The notes under the pieces are model-generated. The model saw only the letters and a list, made by a program, of their open reading frames with translations. It was not told where the DNA came from and made no database searches. From NCBI GenBank assembly GCA_021730785.1, contig JAKFWF010000056.1, positions 1 to 64,000 on the forward strand: a stretch of 64,000 nucleotides of DNA, written 5' to 3'. This DNA comes from Hyphomicrobiaceae bacterium (GTDB taxonomy: Bacteria; Pseudomonadota; Alphaproteobacteria; Rhizobiales; Hyphomicrobiaceae). The translations under genes and the position numbers were made by a program. Position 1 is the first letter of the stretch. The number at the start of each line of letters is the position of its first letter. Shown one piece after another: positions 22,984 to 37,598 of this stretch.

Positions 22984-25900
22984 TCAGCCCCCCCCGCGTG
23001 CCAGTTCCGCCTTGGCCGCAATGTGTTCCCAGAACCCGGTTTTGCAGATGTCCGGGGAGGCAGCCTTGGCTAGGTGTTGCAGCGCCTCTGCCTTGCGGCC
23101 GGCAAGCATCAACTTCTGGCCGACATAGAAATGCGCCTCGCAAATCTCATCAGGCTTCGATGCAGCCTTTAGCGTCGCCTCGGTTGAGCGTTTGCCGAGC
23201 ATCATTTCCATGACCGGTTTTGGCCAATTGGTGCTGACGCGCGCCATATCCGCCGCCAACTCGATATCGGCCATGCCTCCGGCCTGGGCGCGGGCGCGGG
23301 CGATGTAACGCAACAGCATGGTGTAAACATCTTCGCTGTCGGTGTTGATCAGTCGACCAAGGTCGATCGCCGCCTGCTCGAAATCGCCATGGTAGAAGCG
23401 CGCAAGTCCCCGGTCCCGCAACATGCGCTTGTCGCCGGGCTTGTGGGTGAGCGCGACATCGAAATCGGCGATGGTGCGGGCGAACTCGCCCCGTCCTTCG
23501 TAATACTTGGCTCTCATCTGATAGGCCTCGGCCGACTTAGGTGCGATCCGGATGGCGGCGTCGTAGTCCTGCACGGCCTTCGCCGCAGAGGCGCCGCCTT
23601 GCCGCGCCAGCGCATCCGCGCGCTTGGCCAAGTAGTCGGCGTTGTTGGCAACGAGTGCGATTGCTGCGTCGTAGTCCTTGATCGCGTCGGCGTATCGGGT
23701 CGGGGCATTGCCCCGCAGCACAATTTCGGCCCGCAGGACATGCGCGGCCGCAATCTTCTTGCGCAGTGTGTCGTTGGGCGCCGACAGTCGCTCCGCCGCT
23801 CGGTAATCGTTCATGGCAGTGTCCGGCTGGCTGCCCCGCAACAGGAGATCGCCGCGTTCGATCAGCACTTTGTCCAGCGTATCGGGCATGACGAGTTTGT
23901 CGGCGAGCTTATCGATGACGTGCGTGTAGTCCTTGTGCGCCTCGGCCGTCTCGAATTTGGCGACCTGCGCACGCGCTCGACCAAGATAGCCTTCCGCACG
24001 GCTTGGCTCGCGCTTGATCAGTCTGGCGAACGTATCGATGGCGTGGTCGTACTGTTGGCGCTCATGGTACTGACGACCGACCGAGACGTCGGCGTCGACG
24101 GTCGGCACCAGCGCGTTCAAAAGCGAGGTCGCGATCGAGTAGCCGTTCGACACAACCGACTGCGGATTGAGCGGCGGCAGTTTGCTCAGATCGATCGGCG
24201 GGGTGTGCTGTACGGCCTGCCACGCCAGGATGCCGCCGCGGTACCAATAGACATGCTTGTAGCCGAGATGCAGCGAACGTAACGAGGCGTTATAGGAATA
24301 GGGGCAGGTGGCGCCCGAGCAGAAATATACGAGGGGCACGTTCTGGTCGCCCTGCGTCAGCTCGGTCAACTCGGCCTTGAGGCGTTTTTGCACGTCATCG
24401 TCGAAGGTACCCGTTTTGCCAGCGAATCCGAGATACTTCGAGCCGGGAATGTAGACGACCGTGGTCGTGTCGCCGCGCGGATAGACGTCGAGCAGAAGGA
24501 ACTTCGAGCCATTGAGCGCACCGCTTTCGATAGCGCGCTCGAGTTCAGCTGTGCCGATCAGTCGTCCGCCGGGGATGGCGCGGGGCGAGGCCGATCCATC
24601 GCCAAGCAACGTGATCTGTGGCTCCACCGAGGATTGGGACCACTCATTGGCCGGGTTGTCGTAGATGAGTGCGGCCCTGACGATCGCCGTCACTGACGCC
24701 ATGCCGAGCAAGGCCGCGATCGGCAATGCGACAAACACGGTCGCCGCCGTCGCCTTGCGAGTCCGACGGCGGCGCACCGAGGTCTTCAAGAACTCCAGGG
24801 TCAGCGGGAAACTGTCGCCGTAGCGTTGCGCCCAGGCGGCATTCGGCTTGTCTTCCGACAGCCAGTTTTCCGCAACCGCCAGATCGAGCGTCGACAGTGC
24901 ATTGCCACGCCGCACTTTCCACAGCTTCGCGCGCCGTTCGTTGGCCCGGTACGTCTCGGCCGCCTGATATTCATCGACCACCCAATCGCGCAACTTGCCC
25001 CACTGACGAATGAGGCTCTCGTGGGTGATGTCGATCACGGTTTCCGGCAACAGCGCGGTCGGCGTGGCGGGTGTGAGGAAATGCCGGCCGGGCGCGCGAA
25101 ATGCCTCGATGATCGGCAGCAGCGTCGGAATCGGCGCATCGACAATCTCTGAGATGAGCTGGATCGACGCCGGCCGCCGCACCGTCCTCAACCCGGCCTG
25201 GCTTTCGGTAAGCGCGCGGAAGATGCGGCACGTCAGCTCGCGCTGCCTTGCGGACAGGGATTTCAGTACCAGATCGGCATGATCAGAGAGCGCGCCTTGC
25301 CGGCCTGCCCCCTTTGTCGCGTCGCGTTCAGCATCGCCGATACCCCCAAGCTGGACATAGTCCTCCAGCGTCAGGACGAGGCGATCTCGCGACGAGCGTT
25401 TGCGCGCACGCTCCCACAGCAGCATCAATATGTGCTGCATGAGCGGCAGCTGGTCCGGATTGCCGGCCATGTCGTTCAAGATCCGCGTGACCAACTCGGC
25501 TTCGACGCGACCATCGAAAACCTCGGCCGGTCCCTCGATCGCCTCCCGGCACTGGTCTCGCGTCAGGCGGGGCGTCAGGAATTGACCATCGTTGATCTGC
25601 TCCGCCAGGCCGACGAAACGCGCGCAATCACCAAGGAAGTCCGAGCGCATCGTTATGACGACATAGATCGGGCGGTCGCGTTGGCGCGCGCTGGCGAGCA
25701 GTAGTTGCACGAAGGCGCTGACGTCGTCGCCGATGCGGCCTTGCCGGTAGCGGAAGATCTCCTCGAACTGATCGACGAGCAGCAGAATATTGGTGTCACC
25801 GGGGACGTCGATCTCGTCGAGCCAAGATACGAGACCCTTCGGGCCGCGTGTGAGCTTTGCTTCGATCAGGCGCGCTTCATGTTCATCGGGCTCGCGGCCC

Positions 25901-26214
25901 AACCCGCGCGACAGCGAAGATGTCAGGCGCATGAACGGCTGATTGCCCGGCGCGAAATCGGCAACCACCCACTTCGAGCCGGCCTCCACCAAAAGGCCGC
26001 GGTCGAGCGCGTCCAGCAAGCCGACACGCACGAGCGAGGACTTGCCGGACCCGGAATATCCCGTCACCGCGAGGAACCGGTGCGTGGCCATTCGATCGAC
26101 CAGGTCGCTGATGGCGTCTTCCCGTCCGAAGAAAATATGCGTCTCGTCGCGGCTGAACGAGCGTAGCCCTGGATAGGGCATTTCGACGGCATCCGTCGTT
26201 TCCATGGGCTTCAT
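22984..26214 (-). CDS. nSTAND NTPase with transmembrane helix, rhodanese-like domain and TPR tail
   Basis: A 1076-residue protein, start ATG at 26214 with GGGAG eight bases upstream. Residues 10-475 form an nSTAND1-type NTPase: PYPGLRSFSRDE, GREDAI, Walker A GYSGSGKSS (52-60), Walker B LLLVDQFEEIF (144-154) and the winged-helix signature THESLIRQW (398-406). A transmembrane helix spans about 489-514. Residues 550-670 resemble a rhodanese, with Cys632 and Cys637 in FCSGATCPYS and the ending GYKHVYWYRGGILAWQ. From about 705 to 1050 there are TPR-like repeats. STAND proteins sense a trigger and oligomerise; the TPRs could be the sensor. It is translated from the same transcript as the TIR gene, whose stop lies 21 bases upstream. 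Confidence 0.85.
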   Translation of the reverse strand: MKPMETTDAVEMPYPGLRSFSRDETHIFFGREDAISDLVDRMATHRFLAVTGYSGSGKSSLVRVGLLDALDRGLLVEAGSKWVVADFAPGNQPFMRLTSSLSRGLGREPDEHEARLIEAKLTRGPKGLVSWLDEIDVPGDTNILLLVDQFEEIFRYRQGRIGDDVSAFVQLLLASARQRDRPIYVVITMRSDFLGDCARFVGLAEQINDGQFLTPRLTRDQCREAIEGPAEVFDGRVEAELVTRILNDMAGNPDQLPLMQHILMLLWERARKRSSRDRLVLTLEDYVQLGGIGDAERDATKGAGRQGALSDHADLVLKSLSARQRELTCRIFRALTESQAGLRTVRRPASIQLISEIVDAPIPTLLPIIEAFRAPGRHFLTPATPTALLPETVIDITHESLIRQWGKLRDWVVDEYQAAETYRANERRAKLWKVRRGNALSTLDLAVAENWLSEDKPNAAWAQRYGDSFPLTLEFLKTSVRRRRTRKATAATVFVALPIAALLGMASVTAIVRAALIYDNPANEWSQSSVEPQITLLGDGSASPRAIPGGRLIGTAELERAIESGALNGSKFLLLDVYPRGDTTTVVYIPGSKYLGFAGKTGTFDDDVQKRLKAELTELTQGDQNVPLVYFCSGATCPYSYNASLRSLHLGYKHVYWYRGGILAWQAVQHTPPIDLSKLPPLNPQSVVSNGYSIATSLLNALVPTVDADVSVGRQYHERQQYDHAIDTFARLIKREPSRAEGYLGRARAQVAKFETAEAHKDYTHVIDKLADKLVMPDTLDKVLIERGDLLLRGSQPDTAMNDYRAAERLSAPNDTLRKKIAAAHVLRAEIVLRGNAPTRYADAIKDYDAAIALVANNADYLAKRADALARQGGASAAKAVQDYDAAIRIAPKSAEAYQMRAKYYEGRGEFARTIADFDVALTHKPGDKRMLRDRGLARFYHGDFEQAAIDLGRLINTDSEDVYTMLLRYIARARAQAGGMADIELAADMARVSTNWPKPVMEMMLGKRSTEATLKAASKPDEICEAHFYVGQKLMLAGRKAEALQHLAKAASPDICKTGFWEHIAAKAELARGGG

Positions 26215-26235
26215 GACGGCACTCCCGTTACCGGA

Positions 26236-27681
26236 TTACTTTCGGAGAATGGTCTGCAGGTTCTTACTCTCGACGAAGCGGAGACCAGCGACGCCGACAC
26301 CTTTCAGCGTCGCCGCGGGTCCGGCCTGAACCACAGCCAGAACGCTAGGCTCTCGGGAGCGCCTTGGCCGCACCTTGCGATAGAGCTGCAACTGGGCGCG
26401 CAACCAGCTCGGCGGGCTGCGGCCGTGGACAAACAACAGACCGTCGCACGATGTCAGTGATGCCTCGGTCGCCTGCTGCAGCGCTTTGGCCCTGGGTTTG
26501 TCTTCGAATGCCGGCCGCTCCCAGTCGACGCCGCCCAGCCGCTGGCCGATGGCATCGGCTTCCTCCATGTCGACTGAATCGCAATTGATGAAGTAATAGG
26601 GAGCCTTTTTCGAAGTTTCGACCGGGGGCGCAAACACGCAAGTGCGGACCTTATCCTTGAAGTCCTCGATCGGCATCGCGTCGGCGCCGGTCAACAGCTC
26701 ACGGTGCCGTGGATCATCGACTGCCGCAAAGTCCGTGAGTGCCGGGTTGCGCCAGCGCAGGATCGGCTTCGCGGCGCGCATTGCGACCGTGTATTGCAGC
26801 CAGCCGAAGCCATTAGGCAGGTCTTCGAATGTGCGGCCAGGTTCCGGCCCGAGCAGCTGAACAAATGCTGCAGCATTTGCCAGGTCGGCCGTGAGCGCCG
26901 TCTCGTAGTCCGATGGCGTCAGTCCGTAATAGGTCCGTGTCGGCAACACGTCGATGCCCGCCTGATCCAGGTAGCGGCGAACTTCGTCTCGCTTGCGCAG
27001 GAGATCATCCGTGGTCTCGGCAAGCAGAACCGCCGGACGGCGGGCCTGTGCTGGGTGATCCCGATCATGACGTTTGACCGGCGCAGGTGTGGCGGCCTCG
27101 GTCGTCCGGGCGATCTTCATCTCTTCCAGTTTGTCGGCGATTTCCTGACAGACATCGCCGATCATCTGGTAGTAGCTGCGATCGTCGGCATTGCTGGCGA
27201 TGGGCTGTGGCCAGCCGAGAATGCGCGGCTTGTTATTGCGGTCCAGCTCCCAGAACTGATACTTGCGCAAGGTGCGCACCGAATCGGGCAGCTTGATCCG
27301 CTTCTTTTCGACGACGGGTTCCCGGTTGACGACAAAAATGCGGCCATCGACTCCCCCTGCGGTTTCCTCGAAGGCCTGCAGTTCCAGCCGGCAGAATTTC
27401 GACGCAAGGTAGCCCGGCGAGAGAATGACAATCAGCAGTGCCGACCGTTTGACCTGCTCGGGAATGTGGCTGTTGACTTCGTGATTCCCGCGCAGGCTCT
27501 GCTTATCGATCCAGTAGGTGAACGCGTCACGCCGGCCAAGTTTCCCGGCAAGCCCTGCGCCGCTGGTCAAGATGCGGACAAGGGTATCCACCCAGCCGAC
27601 GTCGGCGGACGGTATCAGGTCGTTGTCGACGCTGGCGTAACTGACAAACAGATCATAATCAAAACCTGGAACGTAGGCCAT
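26236..27681 (-). CDS. TIR-domain protein, probable effector partner of the STAND NTPase
   Basis: A 481-residue cytoplasmic protein; the ATG at 27681 has GGAG seven bases upstream. Residues 8-150 are a TIR domain: DYDLFVSYASVDND, WIDKQSLRGNHEV and SKFCRLELQAFEE, where Glu100 is the likely catalytic glutamate of NAD-cleaving TIRs. After a linker (about 185-215), two further segments look like divergent TIR-type folds (AVLLAETTDDLLRKRDEVRRYL near 220 and YYFINCDSVDMEEAD near 365). Bacterial TIR proteins commonly degrade NAD or make cyclic ADP-ribose signals in phage defence. Here it precedes and is coupled to the nSTAND-rhodanese-TPR gene. The activity is inferred from the fold. Confidence 0.83.
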   Translation of the reverse strand: MAYVPGFDYDLFVSYASVDNDLIPSADVGWVDTLVRILTSGAGLAGKLGRRDAFTYWIDKQSLRGNHEVNSHIPEQVKRSALLIVILSPGYLASKFCRLELQAFEETAGGVDGRIFVVNREPVVEKKRIKLPDSVRTLRKYQFWELDRNNKPRILGWPQPIASNADDRSYYQMIGDVCQEIADKLEEMKIARTTEAATPAPVKRHDRDHPAQARRPAVLLAETTDDLLRKRDEVRRYLDQAGIDVLPTRTYYGLTPSDYETALTADLANAAAFVQLLGPEPGRTFEDLPNGFGWLQYTVAMRAAKPILRWRNPALTDFAAVDDPRHRELLTGADAMPIEDFKDKVRTCVFAPPVETSKKAPYYFINCDSVDMEEADAIGQRLGGVDWERPAFEDKPRAKALQQATEASLTSCDGLLFVHGRSPPSWLRAQLQLYRKVRPRRSREPSVLAVVQAGPAATLKGVGVAGLRFVESKNLQTILRK

Positions 27682-29848: not shown

Positions 29849-31057
29849 TTATTCGGCGGCCTCCTTGAACGTCGCCGCCCGCTGGGCGCGCTTGTGGGCG
29901 CGGTAGACCTCCTGCGCCGCGCCGACGCCGGAGCCGGGGGCAATCTTGACGCCGCTATCGCGCATCGCCATCTCGGCGCCCGCAATCGCCTGCAGCGCCA
30001 TCAGTTCGTTCATCCAGCCGAGGTGGCCGATGCGGAACACGCGGCCGGCAACCTTCGACAAGCCGGAGCCGAGCGACAGCTGGTAGTCGCTGGCAGCGAT
30101 ACGGATGATGTTGTTGGCATCGATGCCCTCGGGGACGACAATCGCGCTCACCGTGTCCGAGTGCCAGCGCGGTGCCACTGCGCACAGCTTCAGGCCCCAG
30201 CCTGTGGTGATGGCGGCGCGCACGCCGCTCGCGATGCGGGTGTGTCGGTTGGCGACCTCATCGAGACCTTCGTCCAACAGCATGTCGACCGACTTGCGCA
30301 GGCCGCGCAGCAAGGTCATGGCGGGCGTGTAGGGGAAATAACCTCCCGCCGTCGACTTCAGCATGTCGGAAACGGAGAAGAAGCTGCGGGCAAGCTTGGC
30401 GGTCGCCATGGCGTTCAGCGCCTTCGGGCTGAAGGCGACGATGCCAAGCCCGGCCGGCAGCATGAAGCCCTTCTGCGAACCGGCGACGGCAACGTCGACG
30501 CCCCAGTCGTCCATGCGGAACTCGAGCGAGGCGATGGAACTCACGCCATCGACCATAAGCAGGGCTGGATGCTTCGCCCCATTGAGTGCCGTCCGCACGC
30601 CGGCGATGTCGCTCGTGACGCCGGTCGCGGTCTCGTTGTGGCAGATCATCACGGCCTTGATCTTGTGGGCCTTGTCGGCGGCAAGCCGCTCGGCGATCAC
30701 CTCGAGCGGCGCGCCTTCGCCCCACGGCGTGTCGATGACATCAACGTCGAGGCCGTGGTGACGGCACATGTCGGCCCACAGGTGTGAGAACTGGCCGAAC
30801 ACGGGGATCAGCACGCGGTCGCCGGGCGAGAGCGTGTTGGTGATGGCCGCTTCCCAGCCGCCGGTACCGGACGAGGGGAAGATCACGATCTGGCCGTCCT
30901 TGGTGCGAAACACGCGGGCGACGTCAGCGAGCAGCGGACGCACAAAGCTGGGCAGATCGGGCGAGCGGTGGTCCTCGAGTGCCACGTCCATGGCGGCACG
31001 GACTTCGAAGGGCATGTTGGTCGGGCCGGGGATGGCAAGCGTGGTGAAACCGGGCAT
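29849..31057 (-). CDS. sgaA: serine-glyoxylate aminotransferase
   Basis: A 402-residue PLP enzyme of fold type I, class V. The N-terminus IPGPTNMPFEVRAAM, the segment FPSSGTGGWEAAI, the aspartate in LMVDGVSSIASLEF and the Schiff-base lysine in VAGSQKGFMLPAGLG match serine-glyoxylate (alanine-glyoxylate) aminotransferases. It converts serine and glyoxylate to hydroxypyruvate and glycine, a step of the serine cycle for C1 assimilation and of photorespiratory-type glyoxylate removal. A LysR gene is divergent from it and a formate dehydrogenase lies beyond, consistent with C1 metabolism. Confidence 0.92.
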   Translation of the reverse strand: MPGFTTLAIPGPTNMPFEVRAAMDVALEDHRSPDLPSFVRPLLADVARVFRTKDGQIVIFPSSGTGGWEAAITNTLSPGDRVLIPVFGQFSHLWADMCRHHGLDVDVIDTPWGEGAPLEVIAERLAADKAHKIKAVMICHNETATGVTSDIAGVRTALNGAKHPALLMVDGVSSIASLEFRMDDWGVDVAVAGSQKGFMLPAGLGIVAFSPKALNAMATAKLARSFFSVSDMLKSTAGGYFPYTPAMTLLRGLRKSVDMLLDEGLDEVANRHTRIASGVRAAITTGWGLKLCAVAPRWHSDTVSAIVVPEGIDANNIIRIAASDYQLSLGSGLSKVAGRVFRIGHLGWMNELMALQAIAGAEMAMRDSGVKIAPGSGVGAAQEVYRAHKRAQRAATFKEAAE

Positions 31058-31174: not shown

Positions 31175-32149
31175 ATGGATAAGCTGCGCTTCCTGCTGCC
31201 TTCGCCGTCCGCGCTCGTCACGTTCGAGTGCGCCGCCCGGCTGTTGAACTTCACCCGCGCCGCTGAAGAACTGGGCGTGACGCAGGCCGCCGTCAGCCGC
31301 CAGATCAAGAATTTGGAGCAGCACATCGGCCGGCCGCTATTCAACCGTGCCGAGCGCCGCATTACTTTGACGCCGGCCGGCGCCAAGCTGAAAGACGCGG
31401 TCGCCTACGGCCTCGGCCACATCGCCGGGGCGATCACAGGCGTCAGACGCGTTTCCGCCGCCAATGCTGTTTCAGTGGCGGCCAGCGTCACGTTCTCGTC
31501 CTACTGGCTGATGTCGCGCGTTGCCCAGTTCCGCGCCCAGCATCCAGGTGTCGACTTGCGGCTGGTGGCGACGGCGAACGCGCGCCACCGCAACGACGAA
31601 TGCGATCTGGCGATCCGCTACGGGCATGGCGATTGGCAGGGCATGGACGCCCACCACATGTTCGACAACGACGTGTTTCCGGTGTGTGCGCCAAGCTACC
31701 TTGCACGCCGCAAGCGGCATGAAGGCGAAATTCCCGACCTCAGCGGCGAAACGCTGCTACACCTCGCCCGGTTCGATCGAAACTGGGTGTCCTGGTCGAC
31801 CTGGTTCGAGACCTTCGCTGCCAACGGCGCGGCCAGCGGCCCCGGACTGTCGTACGACAACTACCTCGTGCTCATTCACGCCGTGGTCGCGGGTGAAGGG
31901 ATCGCCCTATGCGGCGGCCGCCTCGCCCACGACTTGCTCGCCCGCGGCGACGTCGTTCGCATTGGCGGCCAAGCCCTCAAGTCCGACCGCGCATTCTACC
32001 TCGTGCATCCCCACGGTGCGCCACTGTCGCGGGCAGCCCGTCAATTCAAGCAGTGGCTGCTGGGTGAAGCCCGGCGCTCGGGCGCGCGGATTACTCCGCC
32101 GCCTGCGCCACCGGCTCCGCCTTTTCCACCCGCGCCGCGCAGAACTTGA
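31175..32149 (+). CDS. LysR-family transcriptional regulator
   Basis: A 324-residue regulator with the N-terminal winged helix-turn-helix (FTRAAEELGVTQAAVSRQIKNLE, about residues 26-48) followed by a LysR substrate-binding domain with RHRNDECDLAIRYGHGDW and a late ARQFKQWLLGE helix, as in GcvA-like members. The C-terminus ends in a proline-rich tail that runs 59 bases into the convergent formate dehydrogenase gene. It is divergent from sgaA, and may control it; whether it also affects the formate dehydrogenase genes is inference. Confidence 0.9.
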   Translation: MDKLRFLLPSPSALVTFECAARLLNFTRAAEELGVTQAAVSRQIKNLEQHIGRPLFNRAERRITLTPAGAKLKDAVAYGLGHIAGAITGVRRVSAANAVSVAASVTFSSYWLMSRVAQFRAQHPGVDLRLVATANARHRNDECDLAIRYGHGDWQGMDAHHMFDNDVFPVCAPSYLARRKRHEGEIPDLSGETLLHLARFDRNWVSWSTWFETFAANGAASGPGLSYDNYLVLIHAVVAGEGIALCGGRLAHDLLARGDVVRIGGQALKSDRAFYLVHPHGAPLSRAARQFKQWLLGEARRSGARITPPPAPPAPPFPPAPRRT

Positions 32150-34877
32150 ACTCGGGGATTTTCCCCATGGGGTCTAGTTGCGGGTTGGTGAGGAAGTTGG
32201 CGGCGGCTTCCGCGAAGGCGAACGGAATGAACACCATGCCGATCGCAACGTCGCGGTCCGCACGCGCGCGCAGCGTGATCTCGCCGCGCCGGGTCGCGAC
32301 CTTGATCGTGTCGCCCGGCTCGATGCCCATCCGTTCCAGCTCGCGAGGATGGAGGCCGGCGATCGCTTCCGGCTCCAGGCTGTCGAGCGTGCTCGAGCGG
32401 CGGGTCATGGAGCCGGTGTGCCAGTGCTCCAGCAGGCGGCCGGTGGTGAGCACCAGTGGGAACTCGGCATCGGGCACCTCGTCGGGCGCGCGCAATTCGG
32501 CCGGCACGATCTTCGCCCGGCCCGAGGCGGTCGGAAAGCCGGTGGCGAAGATGATCTCGGCGCCGGGCTCGTTAGGCGAGGCGACCGGATAGGTCACGCA
32601 GTCTTCGCGTGACAACCGCTCCCAGGTAATGTTGGCCAGCGACGGCATGACCTTGGTCATCTCGGTGAACACTTCGCCAACGTGGCTGTAGTTCCAGCCG
32701 AGCCCGAGCCGCTGCGCCAACTGTTGCAGCAGTTCCCAGTCCTGGCGCGCTTCGCCGGGCGGGGCGACCACCGGTCGGCCGATCTGCACCTGCCGGTTGG
32801 TATTGGTGAAAGAGCCCCACTTCTCGGCATGCGCGGAGGCCGGCAGCACGACGTCGGCATGCCAGGCGGTCTCGGTGAGGAAGATGTCCTGCACGACAAG
32901 GCACTCGAGCGTGGCGAGGCCCTTGCGGGCGTGGTTCTGGTCCGGGTCGGACATGGCCGGGTTCTCGCCCATGACGAACAGGCCCTTGATCTTGCCTTCC
33001 TCCATGGCGTGCATGATCTCGACCACCGTCAAACCGCGCTTGGGATCGAGCTTGGTGCCCCAGAATGTCTCGTAGCCGCCGCGGATACCGGCATCCTCGA
33101 CCGACTTGTAGTCGGGGAATACCATTGGGATCAGGCCGGCGTCGGACGCGCCCTGCACGTTGTTTTGTCCGCGTAGAGGATGCAAACCGGTGCCGGCGCG
33201 ACCGATCTGGCCGGTCGTGAGCGCGAGTGCGATCAGGCAGCGCGCGTTGTCGGTGCCGTGCGTGTGTTGCGACACGCCCATGCCCCAGAAGATCAACGAT
33301 GCGTTCGAGCGGGCATAGAGCCTCGCAACCTCGCGCACGGTCTCAGCATCGATGCCGCAATGCGGCGCCATCGCCTCTGGGCTGTAGTCCTTGATACTGG
33401 CTTGGAGCGCCTCAAACCCTTCCGTGTGCGCCTGCACGTACTGCCGGTCGTAGAGCTTTTCCTCGACAATCGTATGCAGCATGCCATTCAGCAGGGCGAC
33501 ATCGGTGCCGGGCTTGAACTGCAGGATGTGGCTCGCGACCTTCGACAAGCCGGAGTTCTGCCCGCGCGGGTCCATGACGATCAGCTTGGCGCCGCGCCGC
33601 GCCGCATTCTTGAGGAACGTCGCCGCCACGGGATGATTTTCGGCCGGCCGGGCACCGATCACGATGATGACTTCTGCGTCCTTCGCCGCCGTGAACGGCG
33701 CCGTCACCGCGCCCGAGTTGAGCCCCTCCATCAGCGCCGCAACGGACGACGCGTGGCACAGCCGCGTGCAGTGATCGACGTTGTTGGTGTGGAAGGCCGT
33801 GCGGATCAGCTTCTGGAACAGGTAGGCTTCCTCATTCGAGCCCTTGGCCGAGCCGAAGCCGGCAAGTGCTGCCCCACCGTCTCGCTGGTAGATCGTCTTG
33901 AGGCCGCCGCTTGCGCGGTCGAGCGCTTCTTCCCATGTCGCTTCGCGGAACACCTTTTGGATGTCCTCGCGGCGGATCTGCATATGCGGGTCTTTTGCGA
34001 CGCCGTCGCGGCGGATCAGCGGCTTGGTCAGGCGGTCAGGGTGATGGATGTAGTCGAAGCCGAAGCGGCCCTTGACGCACAGCCGGTTGTCGTTGGCTGG
34101 TCCGGCGCGGCCATCGACCGCGACGATGCGCTCGCCCTTCACGTGCACCGTGGTCTGGCAGCCGACACCGCAATAGGGGCACAGCGTGTCGACGCTGCGG
34201 TCAGCCTCGACCGCCTTGCGCTGGGTCACCGGATCAACGAGCTTTGCTTCCATCAGCGCGCCGGTCGGGCACACCTGGACGCACTCGCCGCAGGCGACGC
34301 AGGTGCTGTCGCCCATGCCCTTATCGAAGTCGAACACGATCTTCGAGCCGGCGCCGCGGTAGGCCATGCCGATCACGTCGTTGGCTTGCACTTCGCGGCA
34401 GGCGCGCACGCACAGGCCGCAGGAGATGCAGGCGTCGAGATTGACCGAGATGGCGCCGTGGGTGGTATCGCTGGCTGGCCGATCGGCAGCGGCGGGCAGG
34501 CGGCTCGTCGTGGACACGCCCATGGCCGACACCCAGTTCCAGAACTTGGACTTGTCGTCGTGAGCGTCCTCCGGTTTCGGCTGGTCGGCGACGAGGAGTT
34601 CGAACACCATCTCGCGGCCCTTGGTGGCGCGCTCCGAGCCGGTCTTGACCTTCATGCCGGGCGTCGGCTTGCGGATGCACGAGGCAGCCAGCACGCGCTC
34701 GCCTTCGACCTCGACCACGCAAGCGCGGCAGTTGCCGTCGGCGCGGTAGCCGGGTGCATCGTGCCAGCACAGATGCGGGATCGTCGTGCCGGCGCGCTTG
34801 GCGACTTGCCAGATGGTCTCGCCCTCGGCCGCTTCGACCGTGTGGCCATCGAGTTCGAAGGTGATTTTGGTTGTCAT
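32091..34877 (-). CDS. fdsA: NAD-linked formate dehydrogenase, molybdenum subunit
   Basis: From the ATG at 34877 the protein has 928 residues. Domains in order: a 2Fe-2S NuoG-like domain (cysteines 37, 50, 53, 67), two 4Fe-4S ferredoxin motifs (CISCGLCVRAC and CVACGECVQVC), the molybdopterin 4Fe-4S motif CPYCGVGC, and the bis-MGD domain with Cys in HCTRLCHASS as molybdenum ligand. This is the alpha subunit of soluble Fds/Fdh1-type enzymes, which oxidise formate to CO2 and reduce NAD. Its partner is the NuoEF-like protein encoded upstream, but a toxin-antitoxin pair lies between them. fdhD and fdsD were not found in the window. Confidence 0.93.
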   Translation of the reverse strand: MTTKITFELDGHTVEAAEGETIWQVAKRAGTTIPHLCWHDAPGYRADGNCRACVVEVEGERVLAASCIRKPTPGMKVKTGSERATKGREMVFELLVADQPKPEDAHDDKSKFWNWVSAMGVSTTSRLPAAADRPASDTTHGAISVNLDACISCGLCVRACREVQANDVIGMAYRGAGSKIVFDFDKGMGDSTCVACGECVQVCPTGALMEAKLVDPVTQRKAVEADRSVDTLCPYCGVGCQTTVHVKGERIVAVDGRAGPANDNRLCVKGRFGFDYIHHPDRLTKPLIRRDGVAKDPHMQIRREDIQKVFREATWEEALDRASGGLKTIYQRDGGAALAGFGSAKGSNEEAYLFQKLIRTAFHTNNVDHCTRLCHASSVAALMEGLNSGAVTAPFTAAKDAEVIIVIGARPAENHPVAATFLKNAARRGAKLIVMDPRGQNSGLSKVASHILQFKPGTDVALLNGMLHTIVEEKLYDRQYVQAHTEGFEALQASIKDYSPEAMAPHCGIDAETVREVARLYARSNASLIFWGMGVSQHTHGTDNARCLIALALTTGQIGRAGTGLHPLRGQNNVQGASDAGLIPMVFPDYKSVEDAGIRGGYETFWGTKLDPKRGLTVVEIMHAMEEGKIKGLFVMGENPAMSDPDQNHARKGLATLECLVVQDIFLTETAWHADVVLPASAHAEKWGSFTNTNRQVQIGRPVVAPPGEARQDWELLQQLAQRLGLGWNYSHVGEVFTEMTKVMPSLANITWERLSREDCVTYPVASPNEPGAEIIFATGFPTASGRAKIVPAELRAPDEVPDAEFPLVLTTGRLLEHWHTGSMTRRSSTLDSLEPEAIAGLHPRELERMGIEPGDTIKVATRRGEITLRARADRDVAIGMVFIPFAFAEAAANFLTNPQLDPMGKIPEFKFCAARVEKAEPVAQAAE

Positions 34878-34991
34878 GGTCTGGATCCTGGCGGCAGCGA
34901 TCAAGTGATTAGTCGGCGTATGATTTCGGCGCGAAGGGAGCGTTCGGCGTGGAGAGCATCGCCGCACCTACTGCAGTGCACATGTCGAGGG

Positions 34992-35348
34992 TCATTTCGC
35001 TGGCACTGATTTGCAGCGCTCTGGCTCACGCTCGATCAAATGCAAATGGGTGAGCTCTGACGGTGTCGGCAGTGTCTCATGCCGCTCCCAGGCGCGCAAA
35101 GTCGCCAACGGAATGCCGTAAGTGGTGGCGAACGTCTCCTGACCCATCCTCAATCTCTGGCGAATTCTCTTGGCAAGCGCCGGACGACGGGCTCGCGCGA
35201 GTTGCTCTGGCGTCAAGGGCTGGGCGTCCGGATCGGAAAGCGCTGCAGCCGTGATCTCCTCGTCTGTCAGATTATCGAGGCGCTCCCAATCGGCGTGTGT
35301 CATACCGAATCGATCGCGTTCATTGCCCGAAGTAGGTTCGTTGCTCAT
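34992..35348 (-). CDS. HTH antitoxin of a BrnT-type module
   Basis: A 118-residue protein from the ATG at 35348, overlapping the end of the toxin gene by 29 bases, which implies translational coupling. An acidic N-terminal half (NLTDEEITAAALSDPDAQPLT) is followed by a helix-turn-helix: KRIRQRLRMGQETFATTYGIPLATLRAWER. In this family the antitoxin follows the toxin, caps it, and represses the promoter. It belongs to the XRE-like antitoxins associated with BrnT toxins rather than to ribbon-helix-helix BrnA. Confidence 0.82.
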   Translation of the reverse strand: MSNEPTSGNERDRFGMTHADWERLDNLTDEEITAAALSDPDAQPLTPEQLARARRPALAKRIRQRLRMGQETFATTYGIPLATLRAWERHETLPTPSELTHLHLIEREPERCKSVPAK

Positions 35349-35592
35349 GTTTGTTTGCCGGCCGAGCCGATATAATGCGGATACGATCGCCACGCTCAGT
35401 GTAGTTTATCACGATTAAGTGGAGTCCAAGTCTACAAACTCGATTGAATCGTACGTCATGCGGATCGGGATCGTCCACCTCGCAATGATCCGGATCGTCG
35501 AAGGCAGCCCGAGCTTGTTCGAATGTAATTCCATGCTTGGCGAAGTTGCTCGCTGCCTTGTCGTCGTCCCATTCGAACTCGTCGTACCGCAT
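35320..35592 (-). CDS. brnT: BrnT-family ribonuclease toxin
   Basis: A 90-residue protein with the BrnT pattern: FEWDDDKAASNFAKHGITFEQARAAFDDP at the N-terminus, a central strand region (LHLIVINYTERGDRIRIISAR) and the terminal RPANKHEQRTY helix. BrnT toxins are RelE-fold ribonucleases that cleave mRNA. The gene starts 28 bases after the stop of the formate dehydrogenase beta gene and is followed by its antitoxin, so the whole pair sits inside the formate dehydrogenase gene pair and in the same orientation. Confidence 0.88.
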   Translation of the reverse strand: MRYDEFEWDDDKAASNFAKHGITFEQARAAFDDPDHCEVDDPDPHDVRFNRVCRLGLHLIVINYTERGDRIRIISARPANKHEQRTYFGQ

Positions 35593-35620
35593 GGCCGCTC
35601 TATTCCACCACCAGCCCCGC

Positions 35621-37324
<1,704 letters not shown>

Positions 37325-37598
37325 CTGCTCATCTGCCCCGCGCTGCCGGTGTCGGACCGCCGCTGGCGACCCATGTCGAATGGCCGTACGCCCGGAACGG
37401 GCGCTTGAACCTCGTTCTGGCATACCATATACCAATCACACCAGTGACGTTTTTGCTAGGGCCTTGGCGCGCCCATCAGCATCGTCGGTTTCGACCGAAT
37501 GCGTTTGTCGCGCGACACACGACTTTGCGTCTTGGCGCCATGCTGGCAATTGGCTATCGATGGTTCGGGGCGGCCACTCGTTTGGGGAAGAGCGCGAC

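Follow-up and report, generated by a model that had tools for sequence, protein, structure and literature searches.

A BrnT toxin and helix-turn-helix antitoxin pair without the operator of its family between fdsGB and fdsA of a formate dehydrogenase operon

Results

The fds locus and its additional gene pair

The window analyzed here, a stretch of 64,000 nucleotides from a Hyphomicrobiaceae bacterium (contig JAKFWF010000056.1; the assembly, G000, comprises 70 contigs and 4.34 Mb), carries two genes of an NAD-dependent formate dehydrogenase that are separated by two small genes (Table 1). An earlier note on this DNA gave the coordinates and the gene order correctly: on the minus strand, fdsGB is followed by a gap of 28 bp, brnT, an overlapping gene for a helix-turn-helix (HTH) antitoxin, a spacer of 114 bp and fdsA. 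The gene preceding brnT, which the note called fdsB, does belong to formate dehydrogenase, but its 2Fe-2S thioredoxin-like and Nuo51 domains (Pfam scan) identify it as an FdsG-FdsB fusion; its open frame extends up to position 37435. The toxin and antitoxin genes overlap by 29 nt, and an alternative GTG start at 35393 would give an antitoxin of 133 residues. The pair has a G+C content of 56.4%, as against 66% in fdsGB and fdsA, which places it within the lowest 1.6% of 601-bp windows. The source genome encodes a second brnT-HTH pair, free-standing on another contig (C39) and 51% and 49% identical to the fds pair.

Two other parts of the window deserve mention. A LysR-type gene (31175-32149, plus strand) is convergent with fdsA and overlaps its end; the adjoining gene (29849-31057, minus strand) encodes, judged by eye, an aminotransferase of the serine-glyoxylate aminotransferase-like kind. 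Two adjacent genes at 22984-27681 (minus strand), also read by eye, seem to encode a TIR-like protein and a large repeat-bearing ATPase, possibly a defense or signaling pair.

Table 1. Features of the fds locus, in positions of the window.
Feature	Position	Strand	Remarks
Palindrome TGGTATATGGTATGCCA, 17 bp	37418..37434	-	before fdsGB; likely GntR-type operator of the fds operon
fdsGB, FdsG-FdsB fusion, subunit of NAD-dependent formate dehydrogenase	35621..37324	-	start MNEHVRK picked by eye
fdsGB-brnT gap, 28 bp	35593..35620	-	G+C-rich
brnT, BrnT-family toxin (predicted RNase), 90 aa	35320..35592	-	PF04365; K19-H20 and E83 present
HTH antitoxin, 118 aa from ATG	34992..35348	-	N-terminal DPDAQP segment and C-terminal Xre-type HTH with unusual recognition helix TLRAWERHE
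Antitoxin-fdsA spacer, 114 bp	34878..34991	-	no promoter or terminator by consensus
fdsA, formate dehydrogenase catalytic subunit (MTTKITF...)	32091..34877	-	named by eye; matches the gene adjoining fdsGB in relatives

Identity of the toxin and the antitoxin

The assignment of the first small gene to the BrnT family, already proposed in the note, is borne out by a score of 83.1 bits against PF04365 (E 1.8e-23; cut-off 34.5). The key residues of BrnT are reported to be Lys, His and Glu, and brnTA of Brucella to be autoregulated (PMC10714953). We equate these residues with K19, H20 and E83 by our own position matching; H20 and E83 are invariant in nine aligned sequences and K19 is not. The structure model of the toxin (pLDDT 87.6) has a BECR fold, and its best PDB match is 7vd7_A, the toxin in a toxin-antitoxin complex of known structure from Salmonella (Foldseek E 1.8e-8, 39% identity; phmmer E 1.3e-11); matches to YafQ, YoeB and RelE are weak, with E values of 0.02 and above. 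An RNase activity is predicted for this protein.

The antitoxin scores against the Xre-like, MqsA and HTH_3 families of Pfam, in every case below the curated cut-off. Its structure model is reliable in the C-terminal HTH only, and this domain resembles HigA2 (5j9i) and MqsA (3fmy), the best E value being 6.5e-3 (to 2ppx) and none falling below 0.001. Both sequence and model thus describe a helical Xre-type HTH in the C-terminal part, and not the ribbon-helix-helix (RHH) domain of BrnA. The pair has the layout of other BrnT-HTH modules, with the toxin gene first, an overlapping antitoxin gene and an HTH antitoxin carrying a DPDxxP segment. The recognition helix TLRAWERHE occurs in this antitoxin and in that of the only other fds-embedded pair (see below), whereas LRD stands at this place in 21 of 22 further helices captured by our search pattern (antitoxins outside the pattern, among them L195, L208 and L229, do not enter this comparison); the single non-LRD helix, that of module G098b, reads R-A-W. 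Comparison by eye also shows a common N-terminal 'LTDEEI...DPDxxP' segment in BrnT antitoxins of both the HTH and the RHH type, which looks as though a single toxin-binding part had been combined with either of two DNA-binding domains.

The fdsGB-fdsA junction in relatives

We searched for the fused fdsGB gene in 103 family genomes and in 397 genomes of the order, which sample a larger group; its 3' end with some downstream DNA could be read in 162 genomes, 44 from the family and 118 others. These counts leave out G011 and G019 (match without the 3' end), G359 and G326 (match cut at the contig start) and L014 (same genome as L064). The fetched DNA reached fdsA in 157 of the 162, the exceptions being L026, L090, L095, L122 and L147. 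For relatives with the fused gene, the statement of the note that the two genes are normally contiguous holds: the gap is below 180 bp in 121 of the 157 complete junctions and zero or negative in 61. Among the 36 wider junctions, 30 hold at least one gene that can be named by Pfam (run on one or two examples per kind) or by eye; the occupants are BrnT-HTH, cupin, Spy/LTXXQ-like, DUF2267 (opposite strand), FlK-like thioesterase, GNAT, DUF559, LysE, a PIN toxin and a Gp49-like gene. By the same means no nameable gene was found in the other six (L065, L110, L117, L126, L130, L134). Since the wider junctions hold such varied DNA, the fdsGB-fdsA junction appears to be labile. The recurrence of cupin and Spy-like genes in several genera suggests that they are older occupants; no similarity was found between these genes and the 114-bp spacer of the source genome.

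Several junctions are of interest in their own right. A co-directional PIN-domain gene scores above its Pfam cut-off in two genomes (G072 and G075; L010 and L015), next to a small partner gene without any match. A possible Gp49/RelE-like gene with a partner lies on the opposite strand in L129 and L132 (G170, G205), with a Gp49 score of 18.2 bits (cut-off 23.9) in one of them and nothing in the other. The FlK-like thioesterase gene stands between fdsGB and fdsA in L020 and L021 (G031, G029), two genomes without the fds palindrome described below.

BrnT occurs in only two of the 157 junctions, those of the source genome and of G032, which belongs to another genus; none was found in the readable part of the five junctions that stop short of fdsA. 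In G032, whose stretch is contained in JANXRM010000126.1 (a Hyphomicrobiales MAG), the distance from the fdsGB stop to brnT is 27 or 33 bp, according to which GTG is taken as the start, as compared with 28 bp in the source genome. This rarity, together with the lower G+C content of the pair, would suit a mere passenger of AT-richer DNA that plays no role in the control or stability of fds and is heading for loss. We consider this improbable, given that both genes are intact in two genera and that the two copies differ by a pN of 0.27-0.28 against a pS of 0.74-0.77, the latter near saturation.

Type II modules are generally associated with addiction, and the note had held that the pair stabilizes the locus against loss. 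Relatives of the antitoxin do occur in 18 plasmid records (13 of them from Zymomonas), where addiction is plausible. However, 155 of the 157 complete junctions keep fdsGB and fdsA without BrnT between them. BrnT of Pseudomonas putida is reported to have left the growth rate in LB unaffected while changing the tolerance to some stresses, and an intact toxin gene to be missing in 23% of brnTA homologous loci (PMC7280312); strong addiction should thus not be assumed. That the module serves mainly to stabilize the fds locus is the least credible of the explanations weighed here.

Descent of the two fds-embedded modules

In trees of 25 toxins (one row, G097, being a broken frame) and 25 antitoxins, the copies of the source genome and of G032 are sisters, with supports of 96/93 and 100/100, respectively. 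Their host genes group otherwise. The FdsGB tree places the source genome with G097 (83/93) and G032 with G029/G031 (91/91), although FdsGB alone does not reject a pairing of the two hosts (p-AU 0.074). When FdsGB is combined with the readable FdsA sequences, G032 again groups with G029/G031 (100/99) and the pairing is rejected (p-AU 0.020); G097 then separates from the source genome, whose nearest relative thus differs between the two trees. One simple vertical insertion is not established by these trees, which would fit either an old insertion that was lost several times or a transfer of the module into the same position. No raised similarity of the flanks was seen by eye in sliding identities.

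A palindrome before fdsGB

The sequence TGGYATATGGTATGCCA, allowing at most one mismatch, is found twice in the source genome, before fdsGB and before a GntR/FCD gene (C6:115514, L251). Among loci with enough upstream DNA, at least 15 of its 17 positions are retained before fdsGB in 11 of 30 family loci and in 3 of 24 others, and no shuffle exceeded 13 of 17 positions. The genomes in which it precedes fdsGB include some with the BrnT module and some that have none there, but not the close relatives G097, G029 and G031. Fourteen further genomes were chosen by hand: the palindrome is present in 12, at fdsGB in seven and only elsewhere in five, and its reversed control has no occurrence in the 14. 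A GntR-type regulator thus likely controls fds in part of the family, and the product of the GntR/FCD gene on C6 is likely this regulator and autoregulated. The palindrome was also considered as a site for the antitoxin; this was ruled out by its position before fdsGB in genomes without BrnT and before the GntR/FCD gene. No relevant paper on fds and GntR was recognized among the matches listed in our literature search.

The operator of BrnT-HTH modules is missing at fds

A palindrome, TACGG-N5-CCGTA, marks free-standing BrnT-HTH modules and lies near the start of the toxin gene. It is defined here and, to our knowledge, is not in print; among the matches listed for BrnT with an HTH partner and an operator, no paper was recognized that describes the arrangement found at fds. 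A half-site matrix was trained on 22 modules outside fds, the fds pair being excluded, and scoring was leave-one-out, each module and its near relatives being removed; the controls were 160 ends of other fdsGB genes (one genome counted twice), scored with the 22-module matrix. Eighteen of the 22 modules outscore all 160 controls, six of the eighteen being near relatives of each other. The exceptions are G033 and G034, which are embedded, and G098b and G253b, which are not known to be. The two fds copies score 1.19 and 5.76; 63% and 10% of the controls, respectively, reach at least these values. The palindrome is absent before brnT in both of them, and neither the 28-bp gap nor the 3' end of fdsGB of the source genome contains it.

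A matrix rebuilt from these 18 high-scoring modules was tested on loci unused in training (16 of 20; no BrnT was found in L233, L235, L240 and L245). Seven of the eight held-out loci with an HTH partner score 13.3-20.6, the site lying within 20 to 79 bp of the assigned toxin start (an approximate distance, start codons being script-chosen); the exception, L246, has a divergent HTH and lacks the site. None of the eight loci without an HTH partner exceeds 3.2 (partners were classed as HTH or RHH by eye, and two of these eight, L239 and L242, have no clear DNA-binding domain). Altogether the palindrome is present in 25 of 28 modules outside the fds site and a second embedded site described below (18/20 training, 7/8 held-out). 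Because it tracks with the HTH antitoxin, it is a site as expected of an operator.

A single place in the 4.34 Mb of the source genome matches the strict pattern. It precedes the free-standing brnT on C39, where it overlaps a good promoter match (TTGACT-17-TATTAT), and fds has no such match; since the reversed control occurs at two places, it is the location and not the count that is the evidence. Nor is a high matrix score alone proof of function: scattered sites far from any brnT reach 17.0 in the window, and a site inside the antitoxin gene of G032 scores 13.2, as high as the weakest held-out operator.

Lack of room does not account for the absence at fds, since the operator is retained in other modules that follow a co-directional open frame, not necessarily a gene, at a distance of 27-67 bp; embedding thus does not force operator loss.

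A second capture

BrnT-HTH pairs were also found between the genes for mesaconyl-CoA hydratase and sdhC in two genomes (G033, G034; L189 / L281 and L282), starting at the hydratase stop if a TTG start is assumed. In six congeners (G035-G040) the hydratase gene and sdhC share a strand, and nothing there matches the module; this site was read in 30 of the 93 genomes carrying the hydratase. The insertion is independent of that in fds, and the BrnT-HTH operator is absent there as well. With two insertion events, the absence of the operator from captured modules would be a pattern to test and not a rule. L194 (1486-1881; G072:C150) holds a further BrnT gene within an operon of related enzymes, the third such case; it has an RHH-like partner and lies between a nuoE-like (L194:548-1258, by eye) and a nuoF-like gene.

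Discussion

In most descriptions, type II modules regulate themselves. What is new here is the regulation: the fds-embedded pair lacks the operator of its own family. The earlier note had left open two regulatory alternatives, co-transcription with the enzyme operon or an autoregulated promoter of the module that now drives fdsA, and our results favor the former. The pair has the orientation of its neighbors, a conserved palindrome stands before fdsGB, and neither a sigma-70-like promoter nor a terminator-like hairpin was found in 34800-35750 (0.3 and 0.8 are expected by chance, so this observation is weak alone). Because the promoter-operator of the family is absent at the fds copies, we hold with moderate confidence that the module is most likely transcribed as fdsGB-brnT-HTH-fdsA from the fds promoter. 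The second alternative is disfavored, the family operator having been found before brnT in neither copy.

The following scheme would account for these observations. A BrnT-HTH module entered the fdsGB-fdsA junction, a place of small-gene turnover, in the direction of its neighbors. The promoter-operator of the family would have been lost on arrival or later, and the recognition helix of the antitoxin changed. A single transcript, fdsGB-brnT-HTH-fdsA, would then arise from the fds promoter with its GntR-type palindrome. With both open frames and the catalytic residues intact, the antitoxin probably still neutralizes the toxin, while the usual transcriptional autoregulation appears to be lost. 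With the operator lost, the balance of toxin and antitoxin would be set by translation and by turnover of the antitoxin.

Some observations count against this reading. G098b, G253b and the held-out L246 lack the BrnT-HTH palindrome too, other modules close behind an open frame keep it, high-scoring sites occur away from any brnT, and the fds palindrome is absent before fdsGB in the close relatives G097, G029 and G031. Moreover, G098b, with its R-A-W helix, has a different palindrome before the toxin (TACGTTT-A-AAACGTA), so that the fds copies could use an operator that is not recognizable as such, and a promoter or operator of another kind may be compatible with our data. The module might then keep an autoregulated promoter that contributes to fdsA expression; a new operator fitting the altered helix would lie unnoticed within the module, in the gap of 28 bp or in the fdsGB 3' end. 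The changed helix of both fds copies, the example of G098b and the 13.2-scoring site inside the G032 antitoxin gene all speak for such an operator. On the other hand, the two fds copies do not share the same best palindrome upstream of brnT, the search of the window copy gave no sigma-70-like site, and the 28-bp gap is G+C-rich. We regard a hidden operator as unlikely, although it is the most serious competitor of co-transcription from the fds promoter.

A more far-reaching proposal, which we put forward as speculative and rather doubtful, is that the captured, operator-less pair is set wholly by the fds operon. Shut-off or loss of the operon would let the labile antitoxin fall and release BrnT, coupling RNA cleavage and growth to formate metabolism; the pair between hydratase and sdhC would then provide another, independent instance. 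If captured modules do drop their own operator, toxin output would follow the host operon, which would offer a route from selfish pair to host regulator. The missing operator and the independent second capture point to a general and testable idea: the palindrome provides a simple sequence test of capture and operator loss across BrnT-HTH modules, and the fds case offers an example accessible to experiment. No relevant title on toxin-antitoxin modules in fds operons, or on embedded toxin-antitoxin operons, was recognized among the matches listed.

Formate dehydrogenase operons of the fdsGBACD type have fdsG, fdsB and fdsA in the same order and on one strand, as is the case here, where the first two are fused. 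The locus differs from them by the two extra genes between fdsGB and fdsA and by the location of FdhD on another contig; a search for FdsD with PF11390 found none, and the controls in the same search gave nothing either. The BrnT/BrnA system of Brucella abortus (PF04365) resembles the fds pair in its toxin family and in having the toxin gene first and the antitoxin gene overlapping. However, BrnA is an RHH antitoxin, which controls brnTA transcription according to PMC11980606, whereas the antitoxin described here has an Xre-type HTH and its pair lies inside a metabolic operon. Its C-terminal domain is similar to those of HigA/MqsA-like Xre HTH antitoxins, but with scores below threshold and with BrnT as the partner toxin. 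The closest counterparts are pairs of the same kind, BrnT with an HTH antitoxin, which occur on chromosomes and plasmids: PMC11980606 gives HTH domains in 2 of 33 BrnT-antitoxin fusions, and plasmid records name the partner 'helix-turn-helix domain-containing protein'. Most such BrnT-HTH modules elsewhere have TACGG-N5-CCGTA; the fds pair is without it.
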